From the NCBI RefSeq assembly GCF_003610455.1, contig NZ_RAQK01000002.1:744001-808000 (forward strand): a stretch of DNA of 64,000 bases. Direction: 5' to 3'. This DNA comes from Sulfitobacter guttiformis. GTDB taxonomy: Bacteria; Pseudomonadota; Alphaproteobacteria; Rhodobacterales; Rhodobacteraceae. Both the position numbers and the translations under genes were made by a program. Under the pieces are notes generated by a model, which was not told the origin of the DNA, made no database searches, and worked only from the letters and a program-made list of their open reading frames with translations. Positions 1 through 38,437 of the stretch are shown here, in pieces; the first letter of the stretch is position 1, and the number at the start of each line of letters is the position of its first letter.

Positions 1-489
1 GTGGAGCGACAAATAACCGAGCGCAATGGCACCCTGACGGGTGTCATAGGCCTGCTGGACATCAGCAAGCCGCGCGGCAATGTGTTTCTGGACGAGTTGG
101 AAAGCCTGCTCGTCAAGCACGATGCCGGAATATCGGTGCGCCGATACATGAAGCCCACATTCGCCAAGCCCTGCCCAGACGTCCTGCGTCAGCAGATGCG
201 TGACGAATGCAACTTTGTGATCGAAGCGCTGGCCGACTGAGGATCCTGTACGACGTGCAGTATGCACGACAATTTCTGGTTTGAAACCCAGGGGATCCCG
301 GCAGTCGCCATCGCCTCGAGCGAGTTCGGCCAGGCCGCAATCGCGCAACGTAGCGCGCTTGGCATGAACGATGCGCGCTATCTCCTTGTGCCACATCCGA
401 TACAGGATGCCACGGACGACGAGATGCGGACAAAAGCGCAAGAAGCGTTTGGCGATGTGCTCAAGGCGCTGACGCAGAACGATACGTAA
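1..489 (+). CDS. UGSC-family (seleno)protein, 5' end probably outside the window
   Basis: The frame is open from base 1 to the TAA at 487-489 except for one TGA at 238-240. Read through, the TGA gives Sec-Gly-Ser-Cys followed by TTCSMHD, the motif that names the UGSC family. Both halves match the family pattern as I recall it: a GLLDISKP...FLDELE start, and a C-terminal half with GIPAVAI and VPHPIQ. The product visible here is about 162 residues. Base 1 happens to be GTG, but the family usually has a longer N-terminus, so the true start is probably upstream. The biochemical function of UGSC proteins is not established to my knowledge; a redox or thiol role is inference. A standard gene caller would break it into two genes at 1-240 and 262-489. 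Confidence 0.85.
238..270 (+). promoter_or_regulatory. Putative selenocysteine TGA codon with bacterial SECIS-like hairpin
   Basis: TGA is at 238-240. Thirteen bases later CGTGC (254-258) pairs with GCACG (264-268) around the loop AGTAT, with a further G-C pair beyond an A.A mismatch. The apical loop starts 18 bases after the TGA and has G as its second base. Both features agree with the published bacterial SECIS rules (loop about 16-37 nt downstream, a G in the first two loop positions). The stem is short, so this is support rather than proof. SelB would read it; no sel genes are in the window. Confidence 0.65.
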
Positions 490-495
490 ACGAAA

Positions 496-526
496 CGGGC
501 GCGGGCATACAACATGGCCGCGCCCG
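496..526 (+). terminator. Hairpin after the UGSC gene
   Basis: CGGGCGCGG (496-504) pairs perfectly with CCGCGCCCG (518-526) around a 13-base loop, starting 7 bases after the UGSC stop. No T-run follows, so it is a terminator-like or RNA-stabilising stem rather than a classic intrinsic terminator. Confidence 0.5.
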
Positions 527-644
527 AATTTCACGACGGGTCGAACCATACGAATGCGTATTGATTAGTGTTATTCGATTTTTGCTGACGGATGCCCGCG
601 CGGATGCCACGGTACAGAGATGTACCTCAAAAGGATTCCGCCCC

Positions 645-1559
645 ATGACGCTTACAAAAATCTGCGACGGCCTCGATTTTCCTGAAGGACCTATCGCTAT
701 GGCAGACGGTTCCGTGGTCCTTGTTGAAATCCGGCGACAGACGCTGTCACGGGTGCAACCTGACGGCCAAATCGAGGTAATTGCCGCGTTGGGCGGCGGC
801 CCCAACGGCGCTGCTGTCGGGCCGGACGGGATGATCTATGTCTGCAACAATGGTGGTTTTGTCTGGACCCAAACGGACGGTATCACCCGCCCGATCGGCA
901 CACCCGACGATTACATCAGCGGCTCGATCCAGCGGGTAGATCCCGCAACCGGTAATTTCGAAACCCTGTATGAAAGCTGTGACGGGGTACCCCTGCGCGG
1001 CCCAAACGATATCGTGTTTGACACCGAGGGCGGTTTTTACTTTACCGATTTGGGCAAATCGAACGCGGATTATGTCCATCACGGCGCATTCTATTATGCA
1101 AAAGCCGATGGTAGCGAAATCCGCCGCATGCAGTATCCCATGATCACTCCCAACGGCATCGGCCTGTCGCCTGACGGCAAAACAGTCCATGTCGCCGAGA
1201 CGCGCACAGGCCGCGTCTGGAGCTTTGATCTGATCGGACCGGGCAAGATCGCCCCTTTGCCCTTTAACATGCCGGGGCGTCTGCTCACCACCCTCCCCGA
1301 CTACCAGTTGCTCGACAGTCTTGCCGTGCAGGCGGATGGCAAGATTTGTGTGGCCACCCTGATGCGCGGAGGTGTGAGTGTCGTCCCCGTAGACGGAGGA
1401 CCGGTGGAGTTCATGAGCGTGCCGGGGGATCCCTACATCACCAACATCTGTTTTGGGGGGGAAGATATGCGCGATGCGTGGATCACCGCGTCGGGGACGG
1501 GATGCTTGTACCATACCCGCTGGCCCGCCGCGGGATTGAAGCTTAATTATAACGCTTGA
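645..1559 (+). CDS. SMP-30/gluconolactonase-like lactonase
   Basis: A 304-residue six-bladed beta-propeller protein of the SMP-30/gluconolactonase/LRE family, which hydrolyses sugar or other lactones using a bound divalent metal. Family features include DFPEGPIA near the N-terminus, the RGPNDIVFD and GGFYFTDLG segments, ITPNGIGLSPDGKTVHVAE, and a late DSLAVQADGKICVATL repeat. The ATG at 645 is preferred over the upstream in-frame ATG at 561 because AAGGA lies 9 bases before it and the protein motif starts there. There is no signal peptide, so it is probably cytoplasmic. The neighbouring exporter and peptide-type ABC operon do not reveal the substrate. Confidence 0.85.
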   Translation: MTLTKICDGLDFPEGPIAMADGSVVLVEIRRQTLSRVQPDGQIEVIAALGGGPNGAAVGPDGMIYVCNNGGFVWTQTDGITRPIGTPDDYISGSIQRVDPATGNFETLYESCDGVPLRGPNDIVFDTEGGFYFTDLGKSNADYVHHGAFYYAKADGSEIRRMQYPMITPNGIGLSPDGKTVHVAETRTGRVWSFDLIGPGKIAPLPFNMPGRLLTTLPDYQLLDSLAVQADGKICVATLMRGGVSVVPVDGGPVEFMSVPGDPYITNICFGGEDMRDAWITASGTGCLYHTRWPAAGLKLNYNA

Positions 1560-2708: not shown

Positions 2709-4289
2709 ATGAAATCAACGATGGCAATTACACTTGGCGCAATGCTTTTGAGCACTGCCGCCCCGCTAGCGGCTGAAACGCTGCGTTGGGCACGCTCGGG
2801 CGATGCGCTGACGCTCGACCCACACTCACAAAACGAGGGTCCGACTCACACGATCCGTCACCAGATGTATGAACCGCTGGTAATCCGCGATGTGTCCGGC
2901 GCGTTCGAGCCGACACTCGCCACCGACTGGGCGCCGAAGGCCGACGATCCGAATGTTTGGGTGTTCAATCTGCGTCAGGGAGTGAAGTTCCACGATGGTG
3001 CCGATTTCACCGCCGAAGACGTAGTGTTCAGCATAAACCGCGCCAAGCAGGAAAATTCGGACATGAAAGAGCTTATCGGCTCGATCACCGAAGTGCGGGC
3101 TGTAGATGATCATACCGTCGAGATCGTCACAAGCGGACCAAACCCGATTTTGCCCGCCAATCTCACCAACCTGTTTATGATGGACAAGGACTGGACCGAG
3201 GCGAACAACACAGTCAACGTTCAGGATTTTGAGGGCGGCGAGATCACATTTGCCACCACAAACGCAAACGGCACTGGCCCCTATGTCCTGACCAGCCGCG
3301 AACCTGACGTAAAGACCGTCATGACCCGTAACGAAGCCTATTGGGGCATCGACCAGTTTCCGATGGATGTGACCGAAATCATCTATACTCCGATCCAGAA
3401 TGCAGCGACCCGTGTGGCCGCCATGCTGTCGGGCGAGATTGACTTCTTGCAGGATATGCCGGTGCAGGATCTCGAGCGTGTGAACGCCGTAGACGGTTTG
3501 CTGGTCAAGCAGGCACCGCAGAACCGCGTGATCTTCTTTGGCCTGAACATGGGCGCCGATGATATCGAAGCCGACAATGTTGATGGAAAAAATCCGTTGG
3601 CCGATGTCCGTGTGCGCAAGGCGATGTCGATGGCAATCAACCGCGATGCGATCAAGCAGGTCGTGATGCGCGGCCAATCCGAGCCTGCGGGAATGATCGC
3701 CCCCCCATTCGTGAACGGCTGGACCGCCGAAATGGATGCGGAATCTGTCACGGATGTGGAAGGTGCCAAGGCGCTGATGGCTGAGGCAGGATACGCCGAT
3801 GGCTTCTCGCTGCGCCTTGATTGCCCCAACGACCGTTATGTCAACGACGAAGGTATTTGTCAGGCGACAGTCGGCATGCTGGGTCAGATCGGAGTCAAAG
3901 TGAACCTCGATGCCAAGCCGAAGGCGCAGCACTTTCCGCTGATCACCGACGGCAAGACCGACTTTTACATGTTGGGCTGGGGCGTTCCGACCTACGATTC
4001 TGAATATGTATTCAACTTCCTTGTGCATGGCCGTGAAGCGGAAATCGGAACCTGGAACGGTACCGGCTATGACAACGACGAACTGGATGCAAAAATTCTG
4101 TCGCTAGCCTCCAACGTTGATCTGGAAGCACGTGATGCGGATATCGCTGACATCTGGCGCGTTGTGCAGGACGAACACCTGTATATCCCGATCCACCATC
4201 AGGTTCTGAACTGGGGCATGGCGGAAAATGTAGTCATGGAAGTCGATCCCGAGGACCAGCCCAAGGTCAAATACTTCACCATGAAGTAA
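2709..4289 (+). CDS. ABC transporter substrate-binding protein, peptide/opine type (SBP family 5)
   Basis: A 526-residue periplasmic solute-binding protein. A signal peptide (MKSTMAITLGAMLLSTAAPLAAE) leads into LRWARSGDALTLDPHSQNEG, typical of DppA/OppA-like family 5 proteins. DVVFSINRAK, NGTGPYVL and the C-terminal GWGVPTYDSEY are further family landmarks. Start choice: ATG 2709 follows an AGGGG box and the signal peptide; the upstream in-frame ATG at 2523 would add 62 residues of non-signal sequence. It is the first gene of a six-gene uptake operon. The ligand is unknown (peptide, opine, nickel and sugar binders all occur in this family). Confidence 0.92.
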   Translation: MKSTMAITLGAMLLSTAAPLAAETLRWARSGDALTLDPHSQNEGPTHTIRHQMYEPLVIRDVSGAFEPTLATDWAPKADDPNVWVFNLRQGVKFHDGADFTAEDVVFSINRAKQENSDMKELIGSITEVRAVDDHTVEIVTSGPNPILPANLTNLFMMDKDWTEANNTVNVQDFEGGEITFATTNANGTGPYVLTSREPDVKTVMTRNEAYWGIDQFPMDVTEIIYTPIQNAATRVAAMLSGEIDFLQDMPVQDLERVNAVDGLLVKQAPQNRVIFFGLNMGADDIEADNVDGKNPLADVRVRKAMSMAINRDAIKQVVMRGQSEPAGMIAPPFVNGWTAEMDAESVTDVEGAKALMAEAGYADGFSLRLDCPNDRYVNDEGICQATVGMLGQIGVKVNLDAKPKAQHFPLITDGKTDFYMLGWGVPTYDSEYVFNFLVHGREAEIGTWNGTGYDNDELDAKILSLASNVDLEARDADIADIWRVVQDEHLYIPIHHQVLNWGMAENVVMEVDPEDQPKVKYFTMK

Positions 4290-4297
4290 ACCCGTTT

Positions 4298-4328
4298 GCG
4301 GCGCGCCGGTTCGATACTGGCGCGCCGC
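4298..4328 (+). terminator. Intercistronic hairpin between tandem binding-protein genes
   Basis: GCGGCGCGCC (4298-4307) and GGCGCGCCGC (4319-4328) form a perfect 10-bp stem with an 11-base loop 8 bases after the first binding-protein stop. No T-run follows. Such stems in ABC operons commonly stabilise the upstream binding-protein message or attenuate the rest; which applies here is inference. Confidence 0.55.
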
Positions 4329-4376
4329 GCTCAATGCCCCCTGCCCGTTTTCACCCTACCCAGCTTAGGAAATAGA

Positions 4377-5942
4377 ATGTTACGCACATTAGGTTATGCC
4401 GCTGCTCTCGCTGCTTTTGCTTCTTCCGTTCACGCGGCTGAGTTTAAATGGGCCGTTACAACCGACCCCCAGACAATGGACCCGCATGCGGTAAACTCGA
4501 CACCTGTCTTGGGTTTCCTCAACAACGTCTATGAGGGGCTCGTCCAGCGTGGTCAGGACATGACGATCCAGCCCTCCCTTGCCACCAGTTGGGAGCCAAT
4601 AGAAAACGGGAGCGGCTGGCGCTTTAAACTGCGCGAAGGGGTTACGTTTCAGGACGGCGCGGCATTTACCGCGCAGGACGTCCTCTTCTCCTAACAGCGC
4701 GCATCGAGCCCCGAGGCCGACACCAGCAGCTGGTTTGCGCCAGTGTCCGAAGTCATCATTGTCGATGACTTCACTGTCGACATCATGACCAATGCGCCTG
4801 ATCCGATTTTTCCAGACAGCATCGCCAACTGGATGATCATGGACAGCGGTTTGGCCGAGGCCAACGATGCCACCCGCCCCGACAAAGAAAGCGGTAATTA
4901 CGCGACGCTCAACACAAACGGCACGGGCGCATTTGCAATCACAAGCCGCGAGCCGGGTCTGCGCACCGTGCTGGAGCCTTTTGCCGGATGGTGGGGCGAA
5001 GTCACCCATAACATCACCCGCGCCGAACTGACCCCGATCCAGAATGATGCCACCGCCTTGGCTGCGCTGCTAGCGGGCGATGTGGATTTCATCAATCCTG
5101 TGCCGGTGCAGGATGTGGCGCGCCTCAAGAATAACCCAGATGTAAAAATCATTCAGGGCGTTGAGGCGCGGGTCATCATGCTCGGCTTTGCGAATGATGC
5201 TGCGACCCTCAAATACTCGTCCGAGACAACTGATGCCAACCCCTTTGCCGATGCACGTGTGCGCCGTGCGGTGGCCCATGCGGTCAACGTTCCGGCAATT
5301 CTGCAAACGACGATGCGTGGCACGGCAGAGCAGGTGAACCAGTTGGTTGGCTCTGGCATACGCGGCTATACGGCTGGTCTGTCGAATGATGCGGCCTACG
5401 ACCCAGATGCGGCGCGGGCCCTGCTGGCCGAGGCAGGATACCCCGAAGGGTTTTCCTTCGGGTTCAAATGCTCCAACGACCGGTATTTGAATGATGAGGC
5501 CGTCTGTCAGGCTATTACAGGGATGCTGGCACAGGTCGGCCTGCGCGCCACTTTGGATGCGATGCCGGTGCAAAACTACTGGCCCGAACTGCGCAGCGAC
5601 AATTTCGACATGTTCCTGCTGGGTTGGTCCCCCGGAACGTTCGACGCGGAGCATCCGATTCGCTTCCTCGTTGCGACCCCGAACGAGGAAAAGCGTCTGG
5701 GCAGCTGGAACTTTGGCGGGTTCTCGAACGCCCGTATTGATGAACTGTTGCCTATGATCCAATCCGAGATTGACGATACAAAGCGCCAGTCGATGCTGGA
5801 TGAAGTCGCACAGACGTTGCAGGACGAGATGGCATATGTGCCGCTTTATGTGCAGCCGCTAGTCTGGGGAGCGCGTGCAAATATAGATGTGGTTCAACGG
5901 ACCGATGACTTCTTTATCTTGCGTTGGGTTACCGTTAACTAA
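4377..5942 (+). pseudogene. Second ABC substrate-binding protein gene interrupted by an in-frame TAA
   Basis: The ATG at 4377 (AGGA 7 bases upstream) opens a signal peptide (LGYAAALAAFASSVHA) and a family 5 binding protein similar to the preceding gene. After AQDVLFS a TAA stands at 4692-4694 and the same frame continues with QRASSPEAD to a natural stop at 5942. In the paralogue the same place reads VVFSINRAK, so one coding triplet has become a stop. No frameshift is needed. Without the stop the product would be about 521 residues. It is either a recent nonsense mutation or a sequencing error. A TAT/TAC to TAA change is the simplest origin. The downstream permease and ATPase genes remain intact. 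Confidence 0.85.
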
Positions 5943-5964
5943 GGCCTCTCGCGACAGGACCACG

Positions 5965-5987
5965 CGGGGGGCTGTACAGGCCCCCCG
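5965..5987 (+). terminator. G/C-rich hairpin before the permease genes
   Basis: CGGGGGG (5965-5971) pairs with CCCCCCG (5981-5987) around a short loop that is itself CTGTACAGG. It lies between the second binding protein and the permeases. No T-run is present; a role in differential expression within the operon is inferred. Confidence 0.4.
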
Positions 5988-6007
5988 ACCAATAGGAAAT
6001 TCACCAT

Positions 6008-6988
6008 ATGCTTGCCTTTATCATCCGGCGCGTTTTGCAATCCGCGCTTGTTTTGCTCATTGTCGGCCTTACTGCGTTCTCTATGTTCCGCTTTGTCGGT
6101 GATCCGATTGACAACATGCTGGGGCAAGAACGCACTGCCATGGACATCGAGCGGCTGCGCGAGCAGCTTGGCCTCGACCAGTCATTTCCTGTGCAATACT
6201 ATAAGTTCTTGCAAGAGGCCGCTCAGGGTAATTTCGGAGTGAGCTACCGTCAGGGGCGGCCTGTCGCAGAAATTTTGCTTGAACGGGCGCCTGCCACGCT
6301 TGAATTGGCGGCTGTGTCGGGGATTCTAGCCATTGCCTTCGGCATCGCTTTTGGCGTGTTCACTGCAATCAGGCGCGACGGATTTGTGGCCAATTTCATC
6401 ATGTCGGCGTCGCTTATCGGGGTATCTTTGCCCACCTTTCTCATCGGAATTTTGCTGATCTATATCTTCTCGGTCGAGCTGGGATGGCTGCCCAGTTTTG
6501 GTCGTGGCGAGACGGTGAAAATCGGGAACTGGACCACAGGCCTGCTCACAGCATCCGGCCTGAAGGCGCTGATCCTGCCGTCTATTACGCTGGGGCTTTA
6601 CCAGATGACGTTAATCATGCGACTGGTCCGTTCGGAAATGCTCGAAGTGTTGCGGCAGGACTATATCCGTTTTGCACGAGCCCGTGGCCTGCGCGACCGG
6701 ACGATCAATTTCCGCCATGCGCTCAAAAACACAATGGTGCCAGTGATCACGGTGATTGGTTTACAAGTAGGCGCAATCATCGCATTCGCCATCATCACCG
6801 AGACGGTATTCCAGTGGCCCGGCGTTGGTCTGCTGTTTATCAACGCGGTTCAATTCGTCGACATTCCGGTCATGGCCGCCTATCTGATGCTGATCTCCGT
6901 CATGTTTGTCGGCATCAATCTGATCGTCGATATCCTTTACTTCTTTATTGATCCACGGTTGCGGGTTGACCGCACGGGAGGCCACTGA
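6008..6988 (+). CDS. ABC transporter permease, DppB/OppB type
   Basis: A 326-residue inner-membrane permease starting MLAFIIRRVLQSALVLLIVG, the usual N-terminal helix of DppB/OppB-like subunits. About six membrane helices are visible, and the cytoplasmic EAA loop is recognisable around residues 217-245 (DYIRFARARGLRDRTINFRH). It forms the translocation pore together with the next gene's product. Its TGA overlaps the ATG of that gene, indicating translational coupling. Confidence 0.92.
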   Translation: MLAFIIRRVLQSALVLLIVGLTAFSMFRFVGDPIDNMLGQERTAMDIERLREQLGLDQSFPVQYYKFLQEAAQGNFGVSYRQGRPVAEILLERAPATLELAAVSGILAIAFGIAFGVFTAIRRDGFVANFIMSASLIGVSLPTFLIGILLIYIFSVELGWLPSFGRGETVKIGNWTTGLLTASGLKALILPSITLGLYQMTLIMRLVRSEMLEVLRQDYIRFARARGLRDRTINFRHALKNTMVPVITVIGLQVGAIIAFAIITETVFQWPGVGLLFINAVQFVDIPVMAAYLMLISVMFVGINLIVDILYFFIDPRLRVDRTGGH

Positions 6989-7932
6989 TGACAGATATGC
7001 CTGTAAAACCAGCCGAGCAATCGCGCCTGCGCGTCTTCCTCGACAGTGATGTTTTCTACATGTTCAAGAAATCTCCAGTGGCAATCGTCTCGGCGGTTGT
7101 GTTCTCCGCGCTGGTCCTGTCTGCGGTGTTTGCGCCGCTCATCGCGCCGACGAATCCGTTCGATCCCGCCTCGCTCAATCTGATGAACGGGTTTACCGGG
7201 CCGATGACGCCGAATGCCTTCACGGGCGAAAGCTTCTTTCTTGGCACCGACGATCAGGGGCGCGATCTGTTCTCGACCATCCTTTATGGCATGCGCGTCT
7301 CACTGTTTGTGGGGGTGGCGGCGGTGATGCTGGCCATGCTGATCGGCATTACACTCGGCCTGATATCGGGCTACGTGGGCGGCTGGACCGAGACAATCAT
7401 CATGCGTACGGCAGACGTGCAACTTACATTTCCCTCGATCCTTGTGGCGATGCTGATTTTTGGCGTGGCCAAGGGGATTACGCCGGTTGAATACCGTGAC
7501 CAGATGGCGATCTGGGTGTTGATCCTCGCCATTGGTCTGAGCGATTGGGTACAGTTTGCACGCGTTGTGCGCGGGGCAACTATGGTCGAAAAGCGCAAAG
7601 AATACGTCGAGGCGGCGCGCCTGATTGGCCGTACGCCATTTTCGATTATGCTGCGTCATATCCTGCCCAATGTTTTGTCGCCTGTGTTGGTTATCGCAAC
7701 CATCTCGCTGGCGCTCGCGATCATTGCAGAGGCCACGCTGAGCTTTCTGGGGGTCGGTGCGCCTGCAACACAACCCTCGCTTGGCACCCTCATCCGTATT
7801 GGCCAAGGGTTTCTCTTCTCCGGCGAATGGTGGATTTTATTATTCCCTGCTGTCACGCTTCTGACCCTAGCGCTCAGCGTCAACCTGCTCGGTGACTGGC
7901 TGCGCGATGCTCTGAACCCGAGGTTACGCTGA
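6988..7932 (+). CDS. ABC transporter permease, DppC/OppC type
   Basis: A 314-residue permease with an N-terminal cytoplasmic stretch and a first helix near residues 30-52, then HFLGTDDQGRD-like sequence (here FLGTDDQGRDLFSTILYGMR) that marks DppC/OppC proteins. The EAA loop reads YVEAARLIGRTPFSIMLRHI. It pairs with the DppB-type subunit; ATGA overlaps occur at both gene borders. Confidence 0.92.
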   Translation: MTDMPVKPAEQSRLRVFLDSDVFYMFKKSPVAIVSAVVFSALVLSAVFAPLIAPTNPFDPASLNLMNGFTGPMTPNAFTGESFFLGTDDQGRDLFSTILYGMRVSLFVGVAAVMLAMLIGITLGLISGYVGGWTETIIMRTADVQLTFPSILVAMLIFGVAKGITPVEYRDQMAIWVLILAIGLSDWVQFARVVRGATMVEKRKEYVEAARLIGRTPFSIMLRHILPNVLSPVLVIATISLALAIIAEATLSFLGVGAPATQPSLGTLIRIGQGFLFSGEWWILLFPAVTLLTLALSVNLLGDWLRDALNPRLR

Positions 7933-8909
7933 TGTCCGATGTTGTTTTGTCAATCAGGGGGCTCTCTGTCGAGATCCCTACACGCGCAGGCATCGTGAAA
8001 CCTGTGGACGGCGTGAGCTATGACATCCGCGCAGGCGAGATACTGGGCGTTGTAGGCGAAAGCGGTGCGGGCAAGTCGATGGCAGGCAATGCTGTCATCG
8101 GCCTGTTGACTGCGCCTGCGCATATCGCTGCAGGTGAAATCTGGCTCAACGGGACGCGGATTGACGCGCTCAAAGGCGAGCAGATGCGTCGCCTGCGGGG
8201 CAAGCAGATAGGCATGGTATTTCAGGATCCTTTGACCTCGCTCAATCCATTGCTGAGCATCGGCGACCAACTTACCGAAACGATGATGACCCATCTCGAC
8301 ATAAGCCGTGCACAGGCAAGAAAGCGGGCCATTGCAGCGCTCGAAGAGGTCGGCATACCCGGTGCATCCGAACGCATCGACAGCTTCCCCCACCAGTTCA
8401 GCGGGGGTATGCGCCAGCGGGTTGTTATCGCACTCGCGCTTTGCGCCGAGCCGTCGCTGATCATCGCGGACGAGCCCACGACCGCGCTGGACGTCTCTGT
8501 ACAGGCGCAAATCATTGCACTGTTGAAGCGTCTGTGCCGCGACCGGGGCACTGCGGTTATGCTCATTACCCATGATATGGGCGTGATTGCAGAGGCCGCC
8601 GACCGTGTGGCGGTCATGTATGCAGGGCGTCTTGCAGAGTTGGGGGCGGTGCGTGATGTGCTCACGGCCCCTCGCCACCCCTATACGTTCGGTTTGATGG
8701 CCTCGACCCCGCTCGCCTCTGCGGGAAAAGCGCGTCTGCACCAGATCGAGGGTGCGATGCCACGCCTGAACAGAGTGCCCGAAGGCTGCCCCTTCAATCC
8801 CCGCTGCGCCTATGCGCAAGATAAATGTCGCATGGCCCCGAGCCCGCAGATCAATGAAGACGGCGATGCCGCCTGCTGGTTCCCCATCGACGCGCAAAAG
8901 GTATCGTAA
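7932..8909 (+). CDS. ABC transporter ATP-binding protein, DppD/OppD type
   Basis: A 325-residue ATPase that energises uptake. Walker A is GESGAGKS, the signature is FSGGMRQRV, Walker B is LIIADEPTTALD and the switch histidine lies in LITHDMG. The C-terminal oligopeptide/dipeptide domain ends with the cysteine-rich CPFNPRCAYAQDKC motif found in OppD/DppD proteins, where it can bind an Fe-S cluster. It overlaps both neighbours by ATGA-type junctions and should dimerise with the next ATPase. Confidence 0.93.
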   Translation: MSDVVLSIRGLSVEIPTRAGIVKPVDGVSYDIRAGEILGVVGESGAGKSMAGNAVIGLLTAPAHIAAGEIWLNGTRIDALKGEQMRRLRGKQIGMVFQDPLTSLNPLLSIGDQLTETMMTHLDISRAQARKRAIAALEEVGIPGASERIDSFPHQFSGGMRQRVVIALALCAEPSLIIADEPTTALDVSVQAQIIALLKRLCRDRGTAVMLITHDMGVIAEAADRVAVMYAGRLAELGAVRDVLTAPRHPYTFGLMASTPLASAGKARLHQIEGAMPRLNRVPEGCPFNPRCAYAQDKCRMAPSPQINEDGDAACWFPIDAQKVS

Positions 8910-9871
8910 TGTCCCTAATTTCTGTTAAGTCCCTCACCCGCGTTTTTGACGTCTCTCGCCCGTGGCTCAACCGCGTACTGGAGCGTCGCGGAAAGTCTCT
9001 GCTGACCGCTGTTTCCGAAGTCGACTTTGAGGTGGCAGCGCGCAGCACCTATGCGCTGGTAGGAGAAAGCGGTTCGGGCAAATCCACAATCGGGCGGATG
9101 CTGGTCGGCCTGCTCACGCCGACATCTGGAACTGTAGAGATCAACGGCGTAAACCTCGCATCCGAGAAGGACGCAGCCAAAGTCGACGCTATCCGCTCTG
9201 ATATCCAGATGATCTTTCAGGATCCGTTTGCCTCACTGAACCCGCGCTGGCGGGTGCGCGACATTATCGTGGAGCCGGTCGTTGCACGGGGCGGTGATGC
9301 GACTGGGCTGGCCGAAAAGCTGCTGGAGCAGGTCGGTCTGTCGGCACAGGACGCGGGAAAATTTCCGCATGAGTTTTCGGGTGGTCAGCGCCAGCGTATC
9401 TGCATCGCGCGCGCGCTGTCTTCGGAACCAAAGCTGATTGTCTGCGACGAGCCTACGTCCGCACTCGATGTCTCCGTGCAGGCGCAGGTTCTCAATTTGA
9501 TGAGCGATCTTAAGGATAACTTCGGTCTGACCTATGTGCTGATCAGCCATGATCTTACTGTGGTTCAGCACATGGCTGACCGGATCGGCGTACTGTACCT
9601 AGGGCGTTTGGTCGAGGAGGCGAGCCCCGAGGATCTGTTTGCCAACACCAAACACCCCTACACAAAAATGCTGCTGGAAGCCGCACCACGGATGGATGGT
9701 TTCGGGCGTGAGGCGGTCCTGCCGGAAGGCGAGATCCCCGATCCGATCAATCCGCCTAGCGGCTGTGCGTTCCATCCGCGGTGCCCCGTTGCCGCAGACA
9801 TCTGCAAGCGCGAGCGCCCTGTAATGCGCACGCTAAACGACACAAGAGTTGCCTGCCATCTGGCGGAATAA
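8909..9871 (+). CDS. ABC transporter ATP-binding protein, DppF/OppF type
   Basis: A 320-residue second ATPase of the same importer. Walker A is GESGSGKST, the signature FSGGQRQRICIARAL and Walker B LIVCDEPTSALD. The C-terminal domain carries SGCAFHPRCPVAADICKRE, the DppF-type Cys motif. It is the last gene of the operon; a strong terminator follows about 85 bases later. Confidence 0.93.
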   Translation: MSLISVKSLTRVFDVSRPWLNRVLERRGKSLLTAVSEVDFEVAARSTYALVGESGSGKSTIGRMLVGLLTPTSGTVEINGVNLASEKDAAKVDAIRSDIQMIFQDPFASLNPRWRVRDIIVEPVVARGGDATGLAEKLLEQVGLSAQDAGKFPHEFSGGQRQRICIARALSSEPKLIVCDEPTSALDVSVQAQVLNLMSDLKDNFGLTYVLISHDLTVVQHMADRIGVLYLGRLVEEASPEDLFANTKHPYTKMLLEAAPRMDGFGREAVLPEGEIPDPINPPSGCAFHPRCPVAADICKRERPVMRTLNDTRVACHLAE

Positions 9872-10015: not shown

Positions 10016-12169
10016 CTAATCGAGCAAACTATCATTCACGATGAACAAGACATCATCGGCCAATGCATTTACATTCGTAAAGTTATTGAGCGTTAGCGAC
10101 GTCTCGTCGCTAAAGGTCAAAACGAGATTGCCTTCAATTACCGCACTGACGGCGGCAAGATCATCAAAATTCGAGACCAGATCACTGTGGAAATGCAACG
10201 TATCAAGGTTGTTGCCAAAGTCGCGGATCACGTCGTGGCCGGCTTCCTGTGCAAAGACAAATACATCCGCACCCGAACCACCCCGCAGTAAATCATCGCC
10301 AACGCCACCAGCGAGATAATCATTGCCCGAATTGCCGTTAAGCTCGTCATCGCCGTCACCGCCGCGCAGTGTATCAAAACCGCTGTTACCGCTGAGGGTA
10401 TCGTTCCCATCGCCCCCGAACAGCATATCAAAGGCCTGTCCGCCATTAATGACATCATCGCCGGCACCGCCGTAAATGTCGTCACCGCTTGCGTTGCCGT
10501 TAAGCGTGTCGTTGCCCTCGTCACCGAAAAGGGTATCGGCCCCGCCGAGACCGTCGAGAACATCGTTGTCCAAGCCACCATAAAGCAGGTCCGCGCCCTG
10601 GCCGCCGTTCAGCTCGTCATCGCCCTGCCCGCCATACAAGGTATCGTTACCTGCGTTCCCGGAAATAACGTCATCGCCGTCATCGCCATAAATCACGTCA
10701 AATCCCTGAAGACCGGTGATTGTATCGTTGCCGGCACCCGCAATAACGGTATCGAATCCGATGCCCCCGTTGATCATGTCGGCGCCGCGCCCGGCAGTGA
10801 TCAGGTCACTGCCACCGCCCGCAGAAATAGTATCGGACCCATCTGTTCCGTCCAATGCATCGTTTGTTCCTGTGCCATTGACGATGGCACCGGGAACATC
10901 GGATTGCTCCTGCTCGAGATCGGATACCAGTTGAACATCCCCGCCGCGCAGATCACTTGCAAAAATGATCTCTTCTACTTCGAACAGGGTCGTTACAACC
11001 TCGCCTGTGGCATTGAACACGATGGTGTGGCTGCCATCATCCAGTGCGAATAACGAAAAGTAGTCATTGAACACTTCCAAAGTCAGTGCAGACGAGACCC
11101 CGCCCATCTCTGTAGCGGAAAAGTCAACTTCGACTCTGCTTACATCAAGCTGGTCCACGCCGCCGCCGCCAAAATACGTTAGCTGCGACCCGTCTTCTGA
11201 AGGTCTTACGATTTCGTCCGCGTCCGAGCCGATGAAAACAACTTCGGGCCGGTCAATGCTGATCAGATACTCCTCAAAACCGGCAAAACTAGTGGTGTAT
11301 TCAGGTGTGTCATTAGCAAAACCATAGCCGGTGATCGTCCCAGCGGTGGTGTCGATCACAACCCGCCTGCTGTCCTCATCCTCAATATTGAGTGTGTCTT
11401 CATCCAGACCGCCGGTCACGTCTGAATTATCATTCCGGTTAATGGAAATATAATCCCTACCTTCGTCACCCTGAAGGGTCAGGTTTGCCAAACCTTCGGC
11501 GGCATAGATTTCGTCATTTTCGTCGCCACCCGAAACAGTAAGTTCGGCCTCAAGGTCATACCCGTCTGAGAAGACGTTGATCGTGTCATCACCCAATCCA
11601 CCAAATACCGGCCTGTCGACGCTACCGGTTTCTATGTTGATTGTATCGTCCTCGTTGGAGAACTGGAAGCTGGCGGGGTCGGAGAAATCGATTTGCTGAC
11701 CCGGTGCAAAAGGCCCTGATGTGATGGCCGTCAGATTTTGAACACTATCAACGAAGGCGGAGTATGCCGCAGGGGAGCTGAATTCGGGAATGGCACTCCC
11801 GCCCAGATACAGGATGAACAGTGTATTTCCATTGCCGTTATCGACTACGGAGTTGAACATTAAAACTTGTGTGGAACGCTGCTGGCCATTCTCGGCCCAA
11901 ATCACATTGACGGCTGTCAAATAGGTTTCATCTGGATCAAGCGATACAACCAGATCGTTCATGGTTACCTGATAGGCATCGCTGTTAAGGTAGACTGTAC
12001 CCACATCATCGTTTGGGCCTCCGGACGTATCTGTGACCAGCGAAAAGCTGGGAGAACCATCGGGCGCCACAACACTTAGAACACCAGCCTCGAGCGTGCG
12101 TTCTTCGGTATTCTCAACGTCGTTAAAGCTGACTGTTTCAAAAAGAACTTCATAATTATGGGTCGTCAT
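10016..12169 (-). CDS. RTX-type calcium-binding repeat protein, probably secreted
   Basis: A 717-residue acidic protein. The N-terminal 430 residues match no family I can name but contain scattered short GDD-type repeats. Residues about 433-638 are a run of nonapeptide RTX repeats (GGxGxDxUx), for example [20 protein letters not shown]. The repeats fold as a calcium-loaded beta-roll. The tail after the repeats (about 79 residues, with [16 protein letters not shown]) resembles the C-terminal secretion region of type I substrates. No HlyB/HlyD/TolC genes are adjacent, so the exporter must be elsewhere. No protease or lipase motif was seen; adhesion or surface-layer roles are possible. Confidence 0.88.
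10256..10873 (-). repeat. RTX nonapeptide repeat block inside the RTX gene
   Basis: About 205 codons of imperfect 27-base units encode GGxGxDxLx repeats, often in 18-residue pairs such as [18 protein letters not shown]. The DNA repeats are degenerate and stay in frame, so this is a protein repeat array, not a CRISPR or satellite. Confidence 0.85.
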
Positions 12170-12409
12170 TCGTAATTCCTGCCAAATATGTTTCGAAAAA
12201 TTCTGGGCAAAGCACCTAAAAATACGTACTAAATCAGAGCATTAATAATCTAGTTGTTCTCGAAGTTTAGCAAGATAACCAAATTTGTAGCAAGGTTATT
12301 ATTATTGGCAGACGCCGCGGGCCAACCCTCTCTGATCGCGGCGTCAGGTAAGCGCGCGAGGAGTGCCAACGGGCAAAGGCAGCCGGATCAAAGACGGAGA
12401 AAAAGTCAA

Positions 12410-12441
12410 AAGCGCCCGTAAGTTAAAACCTGCGGGCGCTT
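12410..12441 (-). terminator. Terminator of the Tad-like operon
   Basis: AAGCGCCCG and CGGGCGCTT (minus-strand sense) form a 9-bp stem at 12410-12441 just past the stop of the last Tad gene. On the minus strand it is followed by a T-rich TTTGACTTTTTC. The remaining spacer up to the RTX start at 12169 is AT-rich and shows no gene; it should hold the RTX promoter. Confidence 0.7.
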
Positions 12442-12457
12442 CTGCATTTGACCAAAT

Positions 12458-13033
12458 TCAGGAATTCAGCTCATCCTGACCGTCATCGAATTCGATCTGT
12501 GGCGCATAGCGCGGACGGGTAAAAATGAAGTTTGTGACATCCTTTTCCCCCAAACCGATGCGGAAAGCAGGCGCATATCGGGACCAGGTCTCGACCACGA
12601 TCATTTCCTCGCCGTCCACCATCTGCGGCAGCATTTCGATCCAGTCGGCAACCGAGGCGTTATCGCGGCTGGCCAGACCGCCGCGGCTCTCGGACCATTC
12701 GAGCACCATTTGGTTTTCTTCACCGTCAAAACGCACCACCGTAACGCGGACACTGCTTTGCTGGCGCGAGCGGGTCATCACCTCGAAAATCATTTGCGTG
12801 CCGTCGATATACGCATCATCAATCGCCATGGTTTCACGCGAGAGCATATCGCTGATCGTGTATGCCGCTTTCTGGTTCATCGCGTACTGGCGATAGGCGT
12901 CGAAGGTTGTGAACAGAGCCATGAAAGTCAAAAACATCAATGGCAGCATGATCATTGTTTCAATGGCGATAACCCCGTCTTCGCGGCGCACGAATTTTGA
13001 CAGCAAAAGCTTTTGGAAGATGGACTTAAGCAT
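12458..13033 (-). CDS. TadE-like pilus assembly protein
   Basis: A 191-residue protein with one N-terminal hydrophobic helix preceded by REDGVIAIETMIMLPLM, the class III pilin-like TadE signature (Gly and Glu followed by Pro). TadE/TadF pseudopilins are processed by a prepilin peptidase and help assemble Flp/Tad pili. The remaining 150 residues are periplasmic and unremarkable. It is the last gene of a three-gene overlapping cluster; the stop/start overlap with the upstream gene is one base. Confidence 0.8.
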   Translation of the reverse strand: MLKSIFQKLLLSKFVRREDGVIAIETMIMLPLMFLTFMALFTTFDAYRQYAMNQKAAYTISDMLSRETMAIDDAYIDGTQMIFEVMTRSRQQSSVRVTVVRFDGEENQMVLEWSESRGGLASRDNASVADWIEMLPQMVDGEEMIVVETWSRYAPAFRIGLGEKDVTNFIFTRPRYAPQIEFDDGQDELNS

Positions 13034-13572
13034 TAGCTCGGCTCCTGTACAAAAGCGCTGATCGTCGACATTGCGGCTTTGCCATCGCTGTTTTTGGCAT
13101 AGGCAAAGCCGAGCCCAGTTGTCGGAAAGATCGGGGAAAAGTTGTAGCAGGCACGCAGCATCATCAGGTTGTGGCGCTGTCCGGGGGTAAAGCCGCGGAC
13201 GGGGCGAGGATCAAGCGCGGTATCAATGCAATCTGCACGCTCGGGCAGGCCTGCAAAATTGCGCGGATCCACGACGATCATTTCCAGACGTAATTGAGAC
13301 GCACAATTCGTCAATCCGCCCGAGTTCTCGCAAATCATGTTTTTGATACTGTCGTGCGTGATATTTGCGCTGGTATTGATGCGGATTTCACGGGCTGTGC
13401 GGTCTACACTGCGGTCCAGCAGCATCTGGCGGATCGAATACATGCCCAGCTCCAGCGCCATAAAGAAAACTCCGAAGACAAGCGGCACCATAATCATGAA
13501 TTCAAACACAATGGCCGAGCCGTCTTCTTTTTTGCCAAACTGACGCAGGGCTTTTTTCATTCGGGTGATCAT
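13033..13572 (-). CDS. TadE/TadF-like pilus assembly protein
   Basis: A 179-residue TadE-family protein: KKEDGSAIVFEFMIMVPLVF at residues 15-34 is the cleavage and membrane-helix region. It is a second pseudopilin, overlapping the upstream TadG gene by 4 bases and ending where the next begins. Function in Flp/Tad pilus biogenesis is inferred from family only, since no pilin (flp), CpaF ATPase or TadB/C genes are in the window. Confidence 0.8.
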   Translation of the reverse strand: MITRMKKALRQFGKKEDGSAIVFEFMIMVPLVFGVFFMALELGMYSIRQMLLDRSVDRTAREIRINTSANITHDSIKNMICENSGGLTNCASQLRLEMIVVDPRNFAGLPERADCIDTALDPRPVRGFTPGQRHNLMMLRACYNFSPIFPTTGLGFAYAKNSDGKAAMSTISAFVQEPS

Positions 13573-15098
13573 TGTGTGAGCCTTAGCTGATTGATCTGGC
13601 GTGCAATGTTTCGGAACGTGTTGCTGATATTATTATTGTCGGCGTTAAAGAAATGGGCCGGTGATGAGGCACAATTCCGCATCTGGGTCTGGGCGGCGGA
13701 ACTTGCACTGAATGCGATGGTAAACACGATGACTGGTCGCGGGGACTGCGCCTTTGCCAGCGCGCATTGGTCATAAAAGCTTTGAACATTTGTGGCAGCG
13801 TTCGTGATGGTCGTTTTGTCGGCAGCCCGCAGCGGGCTTACCAGATTTCGGGGTAAAAACGCGTTGATTGGACGGACCTGCTCGGTGATTGCACCATCAG
13901 TCATAAGGACGATGTATTTTGTCGTATCTTCGTCGTTGAAGGGCGCCGGACGATCCCTGAATGCTTCGGGTGCCACATTTGCGTCGATCATCGCATTCAT
14001 CGCATCGACCGAGTTGGGGTCCAACAGCGCAAGCGCCCATTTCATTGCATAGTGGGTGCCAGTACCGTCATGCATCCGCATGTTCTGGATGGTGCTTTGC
14101 AGGGCATCCCGGTCGTTGGACATATATTTGATCGCATTGTGATCCTGTGGACACCAGCCCCATTCCATCTCTTCGCCGCCATGAAGATCATCAGCATTGC
14201 GGGAGATTTCCCAGTTCATGAAATGCGCGGTCTGCCCGAACAACCCTGCAGGCGGCAGACCCATGCCGCCAAAGTCACGCGGCGCGATATCCAGACACGA
14301 AGAGACATTGGGATATACATATGAGGCGGCGGGATTGGAGCCTGTGCCGCCTACAAAGCCTGCCGGCAAAGTGCCGTTGCTCTGACCGGAAGGTATTCCT
14401 CCTGCGCTTTGATCAAGTGCGGTAACATTCAAACGGGTGCCGCGCAGATAATGAAACATTTCGCGGCCGGGATTGGTTTGGCCTGCATAGGGGATGAAGT
14501 TGACTGAGGTCCGCTGTGCGGCCTCGCCTCGTAATACTGTCCCCACGAACTCCTGCGCCGCAGGCCGCAATTTGTCGATTTTCTCGTCAAATCGCATCGA
14601 TCCTGAAATATCGAGCACAAGAGAAATTTCGATATTCGGCGCATCATCAATAGCAGCAGAGCGGGTCGGCACAGGCAAGGAACTGATGCCGATAAGCGGC
14701 ATGAAATTGGTCGGTGTTGCGTTCATCAGATCAACCGATACCGTCCGCGAGCTGAGGCCAGGCGAGACGGTCACATCCTGCGCACTAATTAGATGCCCCA
14801 GCCCTGCCTTGTCGAAGTAATCAAGAACCACAGCAGTCTTGTCGCGCGACTGATCAAGATCAGTCGCCGCAAGCACGGCACGGTCGGCTGTGTTCTGTAA
14901 CCGGACCCGTTCCATTTCGTTGCGCATCAGGTCCACACCGATCCCGCCCACAATCAACGAAAGCAGGATAACGGTAATCGCGAAAACGGTCATGGAGCCA
15001 TCCTCGCGCCGGACGAACCTCTGTGGGAACAATGTTTCCGACTGGTCAGTGCAACGCACGCCCGGATGGGTCGAAACCATGATTTTCATCCCTGTCAT
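13569..15098 (-). CDS. TadG-like protein with von Willebrand factor A domain
   Basis: A 509-residue protein with an N-terminal TadE/G helix (REDGSMTVFAITVILLSLIV at about residues 35-54) and a VWA domain opening at VLDISGSM, a complete DxSxS metal-ion (MIDAS) motif, with a later LMTDGAIT loop supplying the other metal ligand. TadG proteins are envelope-anchored accessory factors of Tad pili. Several ATG codons cluster at the 5' end (15098 and 15089); 15098 is the longest. This orphan TadG-TadE-TadE trio is common in alphaproteobacteria. Confidence 0.82.
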   Translation of the reverse strand: MTGMKIMVSTHPGVRCTDQSETLFPQRFVRREDGSMTVFAITVILLSLIVGGIGVDLMRNEMERVRLQNTADRAVLAATDLDQSRDKTAVVLDYFDKAGLGHLISAQDVTVSPGLSSRTVSVDLMNATPTNFMPLIGISSLPVPTRSAAIDDAPNIEISLVLDISGSMRFDEKIDKLRPAAQEFVGTVLRGEAAQRTSVNFIPYAGQTNPGREMFHYLRGTRLNVTALDQSAGGIPSGQSNGTLPAGFVGGTGSNPAASYVYPNVSSCLDIAPRDFGGMGLPPAGLFGQTAHFMNWEISRNADDLHGGEEMEWGWCPQDHNAIKYMSNDRDALQSTIQNMRMHDGTGTHYAMKWALALLDPNSVDAMNAMIDANVAPEAFRDRPAPFNDEDTTKYIVLMTDGAITEQVRPINAFLPRNLVSPLRAADKTTITNAATNVQSFYDQCALAKAQSPRPVIVFTIAFSASSAAQTQMRNCASSPAHFFNADNNNISNTFRNIARQINQLRLTQ

Positions 15099-34430: not shown

Positions 34431-37391
34431 TTACGCTGCTGAGATCTGGCAAAGTGTCACTTTGCCTTCATGCATGCCTGTTACCGGATCGTATCCGTAT
34501 GATGTGACTGTGTTTACGCTTTCGCCCAGCACAATCGGGTCAGTTCCTTCGGGATAATTGCCCCGCTGGTCTACCCCCTCGAACCAGCCCGCAAAGTGGA
34601 ATGGCATAAACGCAACCCCCGCCGCCACGCGCTCGGTCACCAGTGCTTTTACTTTTGCCTTGCTGTCATTTTCGGGGCCGTTAACCCAGACCCACCCACC
34701 ATCACTGATGCCACGCGCCGTTGCATCCGCGGGATTGATCTCGACGAACATATCCTGCTGAAGCTCGGCCAGCCACGGGTTGGAACGGGTCTCTTCGCCG
34801 CCGCCTTCGTATTCCACCAGACGTCCCGATGTCAGGACGATCGGGAAGCTCTCTGAAAGTTTCCGCTCAACCGCAGAGGACTGCATAGAGAAACCCACGT
34901 TTGGCATACGGAACTGGCGACCGTTTTCTGCAGTCGGGTAGTCCGCGACCAGATCGGGACGCGGCGAATAGATCGGCTCGCGGTGCACCGGAATCGGATC
35001 GGGCAGGTTCCACGCGACTGCGCGGGCCTTTCCGTTGCCGAAGGGCACACACCCATGCTCGATCGCGACGCGTTGGATACCGCCAGAAAGGTCCAGCGAC
35101 CAGCTAACCTCCGCCATTGTCTCGGGGTCATTGCCGCCGATACGCTGGATCACCGCGAGTTCGTCCGCCGTCAAATCTACGTCCCACCCAAGCGACTGGA
35201 GGATACCGTAGGTGAACTGCGGATAACCATCCGTGATCTCGGACCCGACGGGATAGCTGCCTTCGGCCAACAGTGTCTCGCCTTCGCGGTCCACGCCAAA
35301 ACGTGGACGGAACGCGCCGCCGCCGTCTTTGACAGCGATGTTCGGGTTGTAAAGGATGTGGGTTCCGGGGTGATTGAACTCCGGCGTGCCCCAGCACGGC
35401 CATGGCAGACCGTAGTAGTCCCCGCCCACATCCGCTGCATCCGCAGGCGCACGCAGGGTGACCAGGTCAAACTTGTCCTGATTGGCCATATGCGCCTTGA
35501 GGCGTTCAGGGCTCTGACCGGTATAGCCTGTCGACCAACCTCCACGGTTGATTTCGCGCAGGATGGATTCTGCGGTAGGCTCCATCGAGAATTTGCCCTG
35601 CACCATCTCGTAAGGTTTGAACATATCGTCAGCAAAGCCGAGCTTTTGTGACAGGCGGAAAATCACCGCATAATCGTTATCGCTCTCAAAGATTGGCTCG
35701 ACGACTTTCTCACCCCACTGGACGGATCGGTTAGAGGCGGTACGGCTGCCGTTGCATTCGAACTGCGTCGAAATTGGCAGAAGATAGGTGTTGTCGGGAC
35801 GGTCGTGCAGCGCTGCGAATGTGGTGGGGTGCGGGTCTGCGACCACGAGGAGGTCCAGTGCGTTCATGCCCTTAAGACTATCACCCAAACGCGGCACAGT
35901 GTTACCACCATGACCGAACACAATCATCGCCTTGATGTTGTCGCGCTGGTCAACCTCTTCCACATCCAGCGTTGTCGCATCGAACCAACGGGTTGACGGG
36001 ATACCCGCCATTTCCATGTTCGCCTTGCGGTCTCGAGGGTCGCGGCCCCCTTTTGCTGGTACTTCGTCGAAACGCGACTGGAGATAGTCGTATGGTACGT
36101 CCCAGACACGAGCCCAATGCTTCCATCCACCTTCCGCCAAACCATAGTAACAAGGCAACGAACCGATATCGAGGCCGAAGTCAGTGGCCCCCTGTACGTT
36201 ACAATGGCCGCGGAAAATGTTGGCACCAGTTCCTACCGAGCCTACGTTTCCTGTTGCGAGCAAGAGGTTGCAATAAGTCCGCACGTTTGCAGTGCCGACA
36301 GTGTGCTGCGTACCGCCCATGCACCAGATGAAAGTCGCAGGTCCTTTGGTGGCAAAGGTTTGCGCGACGCGGCGCAGTTCCGCGCCCGCAATACCGGTAA
36401 TACGCTCGACTTCTTCGGGGTCGTACTTTTTAACTTCTTCGCGAACCTGATCCATCCCCCAGACGCGCTGGTCAATGTACTCCTGGTTCTGCCAGTTGTT
36501 CTCGAAGATGTGCCACATGATACCCCAAATAATTGCGATATCGGTACCGGGACGCATGCGAATATAATCGGTTGCGTGCGCTGCTGTACGGGTGAAACGC
36601 GGGTCAATCACGATGACATTGGCGCGGTTCGTCTCTTTACCAGTCAGGATATGCTGAAGGGATACAGGATGTGCTTCGGCCGCGTTTGATCCCATAAAGA
36701 TGATGGTTTTCGAGTTGCGGATGTCATTGTAGCTGTTGGTCATGGCGCCATAGCCCCACGTGTTCGCAACGCCTGCAACAGTGGTGGAATGGCAGATGCG
36801 CGCCTGATGGTCGACGTTGTTTGTCCCCCAGAAAGCTGCGAATTTGCGGAACAGATACGCCCCTTCGTTCGACATCTTCGCCGACCCAAGCAGATACGCG
36901 CTGTCGGCGCCGCTCTTCTCGCGGATCGCGAGCATTTTGTCGCCAATTTCGTCGATGGCCTGATCCCAAGAGAGGCGGACCCATTTGCCGCCTTCTTTTT
37001 TCATCGGGTATTTCAGGCGGCGGTCACCGTGAACAATTTCGCGGACCGATGCGCCTTTGGCGCAGTGGGTGCCACGGTTGATCGGGCTTTTCCACGCCGG
37101 TTCCTGTCCGACCCAAACACCATTCTGAACTTCGGCTTTGACCGTGCAACCGACCGAACAGTGGGTACAGATGTTGGTTTTGACCTCAATTGGCTGGCTG
37201 AAATTGGTTGGACCAGCTTCAGCGCGGCGTACTGTTGTGGCACCCAGCGTACCGATGGCGGCTAACCCGCCCACAGCGAGGCCGGAGGCGCGCAAAAAGC
37301 TGCGGCGATCAACGGGCTTGGCTGCAACATTCTGAGCCAATGCGGCAAGACCGCTGCGTGTGGCGTCTTTTGATCTGCGTTTGACCAGCAT
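34431..37391 (-). CDS. fdhA: Formate dehydrogenase subunit alpha (molybdopterin, Cys form)
   Basis: A 986-residue catalytic subunit oxidising formate to CO2 in the periplasm. A twin-arginine signal (DRRSFLRASGLAVGG, residues about 28-42) leads to the Fe4S4 motif CTHCSVGC ... GTHCAKG. The metal ligand lies in VDHQARICHSTTVAG: Cys replaces the selenocysteine of E. coli FdnG, and the neighbouring His is kept. A C-terminal molybdopterin-dinucleotide domain includes LTSGRLVEYEGGGEETRSNP. The enzyme is exported folded through Tat and bound to the beta and gamma subunits. Confidence 0.95.
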   Translation of the reverse strand: MLVKRRSKDATRSGLAALAQNVAAKPVDRRSFLRASGLAVGGLAAIGTLGATTVRRAEAGPTNFSQPIEVKTNICTHCSVGCTVKAEVQNGVWVGQEPAWKSPINRGTHCAKGASVREIVHGDRRLKYPMKKEGGKWVRLSWDQAIDEIGDKMLAIREKSGADSAYLLGSAKMSNEGAYLFRKFAAFWGTNNVDHQARICHSTTVAGVANTWGYGAMTNSYNDIRNSKTIIFMGSNAAEAHPVSLQHILTGKETNRANVIVIDPRFTRTAAHATDYIRMRPGTDIAIIWGIMWHIFENNWQNQEYIDQRVWGMDQVREEVKKYDPEEVERITGIAGAELRRVAQTFATKGPATFIWCMGGTQHTVGTANVRTYCNLLLATGNVGSVGTGANIFRGHCNVQGATDFGLDIGSLPCYYGLAEGGWKHWARVWDVPYDYLQSRFDEVPAKGGRDPRDRKANMEMAGIPSTRWFDATTLDVEEVDQRDNIKAMIVFGHGGNTVPRLGDSLKGMNALDLLVVADPHPTTFAALHDRPDNTYLLPISTQFECNGSRTASNRSVQWGEKVVEPIFESDNDYAVIFRLSQKLGFADDMFKPYEMVQGKFSMEPTAESILREINRGGWSTGYTGQSPERLKAHMANQDKFDLVTLRAPADAADVGGDYYGLPWPCWGTPEFNHPGTHILYNPNIAVKDGGGAFRPRFGVDREGETLLAEGSYPVGSEITDGYPQFTYGILQSLGWDVDLTADELAVIQRIGGNDPETMAEVSWSLDLSGGIQRVAIEHGCVPFGNGKARAVAWNLPDPIPVHREPIYSPRPDLVADYPTAENGRQFRMPNVGFSMQSSAVERKLSESFPIVLTSGRLVEYEGGGEETRSNPWLAELQQDMFVEINPADATARGISDGGWVWVNGPENDSKAKVKALVTERVAAGVAFMPFHFAGWFEGVDQRGNYPEGTDPIVLGESVNTVTSYGYDPVTGMHEGKVTLCQISAA

Positions 37392-38324: not shown

Positions 38325-38437
38325 GATGTCACCTCGATAAATGGGGTGTGGGTGGTGTCTAACCCGCCGCTCATAATTCCACATTCGTGCAGACTTAGCA
38401 ACAATTTACGGCGGGGTCTTAACTGATTTTGATAATA

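Follow-up and report, generated by a model that had tools for sequence, protein, structure and literature searches.

The window analysed here (the whole stretch of 64,000 nucleotides from Sulfitobacter guttiformis, G000:C2:744001-808000) opens inside a gene of the UGSC family whose reading frame is crossed by a TGA codon. Is this TGA a stop or is it read as selenocysteine (Sec), and, in the latter case, what kind of reaction does the selenoprotein catalyze? Few marine selenoprotein families are as common as UGSC, which has 255 sequences in the GOS metagenomes (PMC2398784) and accounts for 8.2% of selenoprotein genes (PMC9402790); in a 2026 review it is listed with the families of largely uncharacterised function (PMC13188914). 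The reading favoured on balance is that UGA238 is decoded as Sec by machinery encoded in the same cassette, and that UGSC would supply the small, catalytic subunit of a two-part reductase akin to selenoprotein B of the D-proline/glycine reductase type, selenium enzymes that degrade amino acids reductively.

The gene, its in-frame TGA and the hairpin that follows

The gene occupies window positions 1-489 on the plus strand, with a frame that is open on both sides of the TGA at 238-240 and runs to the next stop, the TAA at 487-489, and it was noticed by a first-pass annotation of the sequence, which had reported the TGA with its open frame on either side, as is indeed seen, and had assigned the product to the UGSC family. 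This assignment is borne out by two profiles run against the joined frame: NF041046 (‘UGSC family (seleno)protein’) matches residues 15-158 with 165.9 bits (cut-off 125), unbroken over the TGA, and PF24696 matches in a single stretch over the TGA with 148.7 bits (cut-off 25). The product of window 1-489 belongs to the UGSC family (NF041046 / PF24696). The span 1..489 given by the annotation holds at its 3’ end, and its 5’ end needs correction: the window cuts the gene, the frame extends 39 bases leftward, and the start is likely the ATG at G000:C2:743962, after GAGGAGGAGC. From this ATG the protein has 175 residues (full open reading frame (ORF) at L018:11963-12490), with Sec at position 93, which is residue 80 of the part within the window. 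On the opposite strand the gene is overlain by an open frame (window 1-549, minus strand), probably a shadow of codon bias, which has 183 residues up to the edge of the window and 204 in L018.

Around the TGA the product reads ...EALAD-U-GSCTTCSMHD... (DUGSCTTC), with U-G-S-C at the in-frame TGA. The Cys codon of the UxxC motif (window 247-249, plus strand) encodes the probable resolving cysteine, and a further Cys codon (window 256-258, plus strand) completes UxxCxxC. Both the Sec/Cys position and the UxxC cysteine are invariant in all 46 homologues that are fused to the partner protein described below, the invariance of the latter in the Cys-form alignment being partly forced by the DCGSC search pattern. 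Motif, length and the order of TGA and then hairpin are alike in the UGSC family described from the GOS metagenomes (PMC2398784).

The TGA is kept widely. It occurs once in each of the 24 UGSC matches among 60 relatives, and in the class, where 40 of 385 genomes have a UGSC match and single genomes carry up to eight copies, one TGA is present in 92 of 98 matches (35 of the 40 genomes). Close relatives with a sense codon, which the annotation had named as evidence that would speak against a selenoprotein, were sought across the genus in 35 further genomes, and all 19 UGSC homologues there keep one TGA. Cys-form homologues exist further afield, in at least 79 loci from Pseudomonadota, Bacteroidota, Actinomycetota, archaea and others; these came from one pattern search demanding DCGSC and, as the third motif residue, Cys or Trp, with 80 of 164 stretches confirmed, so that Cys at the TGA site in these 79 loci is what the pattern required. 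On a tree of 100 rows five Sec/Cys changes have to be assumed, of which starred branches force at least two, and nine Cys forms make up a clade nested within Sec forms. Five archaeal Cys-form loci (L113, L118, L121, L124, L138) have lysS, thiC and a ribokinase-like gene nearby in 4 or 5 of 5; lysS and thiC as neighbours in these loci give no hint of function.

A hairpin at window 254-268 (plus strand), proposed by the annotation to resemble a selenocysteine insertion sequence (SECIS), is present as CGUGC(AGUAU)GCACG, with a stem of 254-258/264-268, a loop of 259-263, GU at 260-261 and a possible sixth pair (A-U). Its conservation was followed in 93 TGA-bearing UGSC genes from 92 loci (24 from the search of relatives, 68 from that of the class), which give 87 distinct 63-base segments; the set demanded the TGA within an Asp-TGA-Gly-(Ser/Ala/Thr)-Cys frame and leaves uncounted the Sec genes lacking such a frame, and the sequences counted, here and in the third-Cys comparison below, are related by descent, making their Fisher values descriptive. 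All five pairs (positions 16-20/26-30 after the TGA) form in 83 of the 87 distinct genes and four pairs in the other 4. At pair 5, 72 genes have C-G and 15 have G-C, a switch that accompanies replacement of Cys by Trp at the third motif position, and pair 2 is G-U in 45, G-C in 32, A-U in 6 and unpaired in 4. The loop starts with AGU or UGU (xGU) in 87 of 87. Synonymous-codon nulls give far fewer full stems, with a mean of 19.5 and a maximum of 32 in 1000 draws using the codon usage of the ORFs of this locus, and a mean of 32.2 and a maximum of 45 using usage pooled from the segments. Shifting the 3’ arm in either direction by 1 to 3 bases leaves 0/87 full stems (-4: 29/87; +4: none). Among the Cys homologues taken as a control (80 segments, 79 loci), full stems occur in 21/80 and the xGU loop in 0/80. 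Judged by this comparison, the hairpin qualifies as a SECIS, lying just 3’ of the TGA, with a G in the loop, and being conserved with compensatory changes in the Sec genes and not in the Cys homologues.

The selenocysteine cassette and the partner protein

Sec decoding further requires dedicated machinery, and a search of the genome for selA, selB, selD and tRNA-Sec, as the annotation had suggested, found all four, the first two and the tRNA gene adjoining UGSC. Immediately upstream of it lie selA (568.1 bits, C2:738834-740222), selB (259.1 bits, C2:740219-742135; with a further match to PF09107, the SelB winged-helix model), the gene for tRNA-Sec (70.6 bits, gathering 47, C2:742152-742242; anticodon tca by ARAGORN) and, between the latter and UGSC, a gene for a 529-residue partner protein (C2:742337-743926), while selD (289.9 bits) is present elsewhere in the genome and not in the cassette. 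The order selA-selB-tRNASec-partner-UGSC is found in 10 of 10 loci examined (this one and nine from the 19 other UGSC-bearing Sulfitobacter genomes), and the same 20 of 36 Sulfitobacter genomes carry UGSC, selA and the partner, with the other 16 carrying none of the three. The genes for SelA, SelB, tRNA-Sec, partner and UGSC form one cassette in the genus. selD is over its cut-off in all 24 of the 36 Sulfitobacter genomes that were tested for it, 10 of them without UGSC, indicating that selenium handling is general in the genus and that Sec decoding comes with UGSC. Formate dehydrogenase alpha was the one other Sec client checked in the genome, and its matches contain no in-frame stop. A formate-dehydrogenase-like ORF of 986 residues within the window (34431-37391, minus strand) scores below the TIGR01591 cut-off in pieces, likewise with no in-frame stop.

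Several observations count against decoding as Sec. The 62-base stretch 229-290 folds no better than its shuffles (z +0.67), and for window 1-1000 Rfam has no matching family up to E 1, so that the hairpin is convincing solely by comparison; the folding energy of the 23 bases 250-272 is -7.4 kcal/mol, with 6 of 200 shuffles equally good. Outside the genus, co-occurrence of UGSC and machinery is imperfect, two genomes (G042, G049) having selA without UGSC and another (G046, 77% complete) having four Sec-UGSC genes and no selA match. Since TGA is a stop in the standard code and the single-sequence fold of the 62-base stretch is unremarkable, the TGA could be a true stop or a sequencing error, with the downstream frame a pseudogene remnant. 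This explanation is scarcely credible in view of the recurrence of a single TGA in the matches from relatives and class, the covarying hairpin, and the Sec machinery adjoining the gene, and from these comparisons of sequence Sec is almost certainly incorporated at UGA238.

The partner consists of an N-terminal redoxin-like domain (AhpC-TSA, 34.9 bits) followed by about 400 residues (L018:10713-11924) with no match in Pfam or NCBIfam, nor do seven relatives of the partner, two of them of the fused form, give an over-cut-off match for this part. A search with the whole partner places at least 7913 of 8000 scored candidates at E up to 0.001, some of which may share the redoxin domain alone. The association of the partner with UGSC extends well beyond the Sulfitobacter cassette. 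The two occur in the same 21 genomes among the 60 relatives, and among the 385 genomes of the class 40 have UGSC and 40 have the partner, with 38 in common and the four others resting on E-values of 2e-4 or weaker. Among the Cys forms, the partner domain is present in 78 of 79 loci, on the same strand as UGSC in all 78, within 300 bases of it in 74 and more than 1300 bases away in 2; in 23 loci both lie in one reading frame. A UGSC fusion with a domain called ‘Unknown_1’ is mentioned in PMC2398784, and this may be the partner domain. A selAB-tRNASec-partner cassette, a general partner and a link to selenoprotein B are not described for UGSC in the accessible passages of that article.

The third Cys of the motif goes with the redoxin domain of the partner. 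A comparison of 165 distinct UGSC genes, leaving out 17 that are truncated, 5 without a partner match and 1 with Gly, and counting a thioredoxin-like domain where one was matched (E up to 1e-3) no more than 900 bases upstream of the partner match, found the redoxin-domain partner beside 58 of 75 UGSC genes with the third Cys and beside 0 of 67 with Trp in its place, a pattern that fits electron transfer from the redoxin domain to the third Cys. It is tempered by the 17 of 75 third-Cys genes whose partner has no redoxin domain, and by the genes not being independent. UGSC and its partner likely act together as a thioredoxin-coupled two-part reductase.

Fold, relation to selenoprotein B and the proposed reaction

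As modelled by AlphaFold, both the window protein (pLDDT 95.1, pTM 0.90) and a fused homologue (pLDDT 91.2, pTM 0.92) contain five core strands alternating with helices, with Sec/Cys just before the helix that follows the third core strand. The order in the window model is E14-20 H26-40 E44-50 H60-69 E72-78 H81-96 E101-106 H107-119 E126-130 H139-158, and that of the fused homologue is similar. Structural neighbours of the UGSC models are flavodoxin-, receiver- and B12-domain-like folds, the top-ranked match being a subunit of the methanogen methyl-coenzyme M reductase activation complex (8s7v chain H), and UGSC is predicted to be a flavodoxin-like domain. A thioredoxin-like fold had been suggested for the family in 2008 (PMC2398784); this proposal finds no support in the predicted models, whose strand and helix order differs from that of thioredoxin. 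Structure matches to the fused model mainly cover residues 25-300, so that the partner fold is barely probed and no novelty is claimed for it. No selenoprotein B chain is among the structural matches listed, which excludes nothing, and sequence searches of the PDB give no credible match for UGSC or for the PrdB-like set described next.

A relationship to selenoprotein B emerged at the level of sequence profiles. Short matches to PF07355 are found in 43 of the 385 genomes of the class, with 26 among the 40 UGSC genomes and none in the S. guttiformis genome, and 20 of 30 fetched PF07355 loci (L237-L266) encode TGA-bearing PrdB-like proteins. These selenoproteins are of the LVPV-U-PxC type and, should all PF07355 matches be such, would be present in 26 of the 40 UGSC genomes; in one genome (G375) the gene for a PrdB-like selenoprotein lies directly downstream of that for UGSC (G375:C14:37504-37917 and 37974-38402, both minus). 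All 20 match TIGR04483, and 1 of the 20 weakly matches NF041046 (E 0.0023). HHalign of UGSC against the 20 PrdB-like selenoproteins gives probabilities of 78.2% and 77.7%, moderate and not calibrated, with Sec aligned on Sec, and 64.2% with seven motif residues masked, the best of 28 unrelated neighbour families reaching 7.6%. The partner domain aligned with UGSC gives 3.2%, and reversed controls give 0.1-0.2%. In the consensus lines, selenoprotein B (PrdB of D-proline reductase, TIGR04483; GrdB/F/H of glycine/sarcosine/betaine reductase, PF07355) and UGSC share UxxC after a VDAV-type strand and then an LExxGIP helix. None of 27 UGSC members has PF07355 among its Pfam matches, a point against the relationship, and with a profile-profile match and no direct match to PF07355 UGSC is classed as a probable distant relative of selenoprotein B, the Sec-bearing half of D-proline/glycine reductase, and not as a member.

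These results bear on another explanation, one supposed in 2008, by which UGSC is a real selenoprotein, yet a plain thiol oxidoreductase of the thioredoxin or peroxiredoxin kind, performing disulfide or peroxide chemistry without breaking a bond of a substrate. The UxxC redox motif and the redoxin-like domain carried by the partner are both as this explanation would expect; the order of strands and helices in the models, the flavodoxin- and receiver-like structure matches and the remote homology to selenoprotein B are not, and a partner that already brings a redoxin domain would make a second one redundant. We regard it as rather unlikely. That UGSC is instead a selenoprotein-B-like reductase is, taken by itself, about an even proposition.

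UGSC and selenoprotein B differ in their partners and their hosts. The reductases of the selenoprotein B family have a pyruvoyl-bearing partner subunit, whereas UGSC is accompanied by another protein, and selenoprotein B is found in Stickland anaerobes, whereas UGSC is hosted by marine alphaproteobacteria (Sec) and by actinobacteria, archaea and others (Cys). Tentatively, UGSC and its constant partner may represent a branch of the selenoprotein-B reductases that has two subunits and is not yet described, in aerobic bacteria and (as Cys forms) in archaea and actinobacteria, with the Sec-decoding system kept, gained or lost in the genus as a cassette for one enzyme. The literature on UGSC, alone or together with GrdB/PrdB, covered as titles and some passages with subscription papers outside its scope, yielded no function and no GrdB/PrdB link.

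In the reductase mechanism that we propose, SelB and tRNA-Sec would read the in-frame hairpin 254-268 and insert Sec at UGA238. Sec93, at the start of a helix in the flavodoxin-like domain, would attack a substrate held between UGSC and the partner domain, perhaps a small organic acid, either free or as the CoA ester, and a bond of the substrate would be reductively cleaved. The resulting Se-S or Se-substrate link would be resolved by Cys96 (of UxxC) and passed to Cys99 (the third Cys), which the redoxin domain of the partner would in turn reduce, recycling Sec. The attack by Sec93 and the recycling through Cys96, Cys99 and the redoxin domain are proposed by analogy with the GrdB glycine reductase. 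In glycine reductase, GrdB, which also has a UxxCxxC motif, binds the substrate, and thioredoxin, the reductant of the complex, acts on the partner GrdA (PMC13188914).

As for the substrate, an organic acid or a CoA ester is a guess that rests on CoA-ligase, CoA-transferase and TRAP genes nearby. Near the cassette in the 10 Sulfitobacter loci are genes for a TAXI-type solute-binding protein (7 loci), a TRAP permease (6), and an AMP-ligase (at least 75% identity) and a thiamine pyrophosphate (TPP) enzyme (4), the last two being encoded upstream at this locus. ORF clusters recurring near the Cys forms, built from naive ORFs and named by their representatives, include CoA-transferase III (17/79), AMP-ligase (13/79), acyl-CoA dehydrogenase (11/79) and enoyl-CoA hydratase (9/79), all raw counts without a background rate. 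The same neighbours would suit a third explanation, in which UGSC and its partner use Sec or Cys as a nucleophile on CoA esters, as a lyase, hydrolase or acyl/CoA-transfer enzyme would, and the redoxin domain merely keeps Sec reduced; the 67 genes with Trp for the third Cys, with no thioredoxin-like domain found on the partner, would then reflect a dispensable redox part. Such neighbour families are however common in these genomes, and the remote homology points to a reductase family; this explanation is unlikely.

For the reductase reading, the constant partner and the link to selenoprotein B point to two specific proteins that could be purified as a pair and to the type of reaction that assays should look for. 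The one-cassette layout amounts to a small, nearly self-contained Sec system through which selenium dependence could be tied to one enzyme, and Sulfitobacter is a culturable, aerobic genus.

Elsewhere in the window

A peptide-type ABC cluster spans about 2709-9871 of the window, its first gene being SBP_bac_5, and a second solute-binding-protein gene (4374-5942, plus strand) is seemingly interrupted by an in-frame TAA at 4692-4694, as read from the frames alone. The region 10016-15098 (minus strand), judged from its translation, holds a gene for a protein of 717 residues, whose glycine/aspartate-rich repeats are like those of RTX proteins, and three genes whose products resemble pilus-assembly (Tad-type) proteins.
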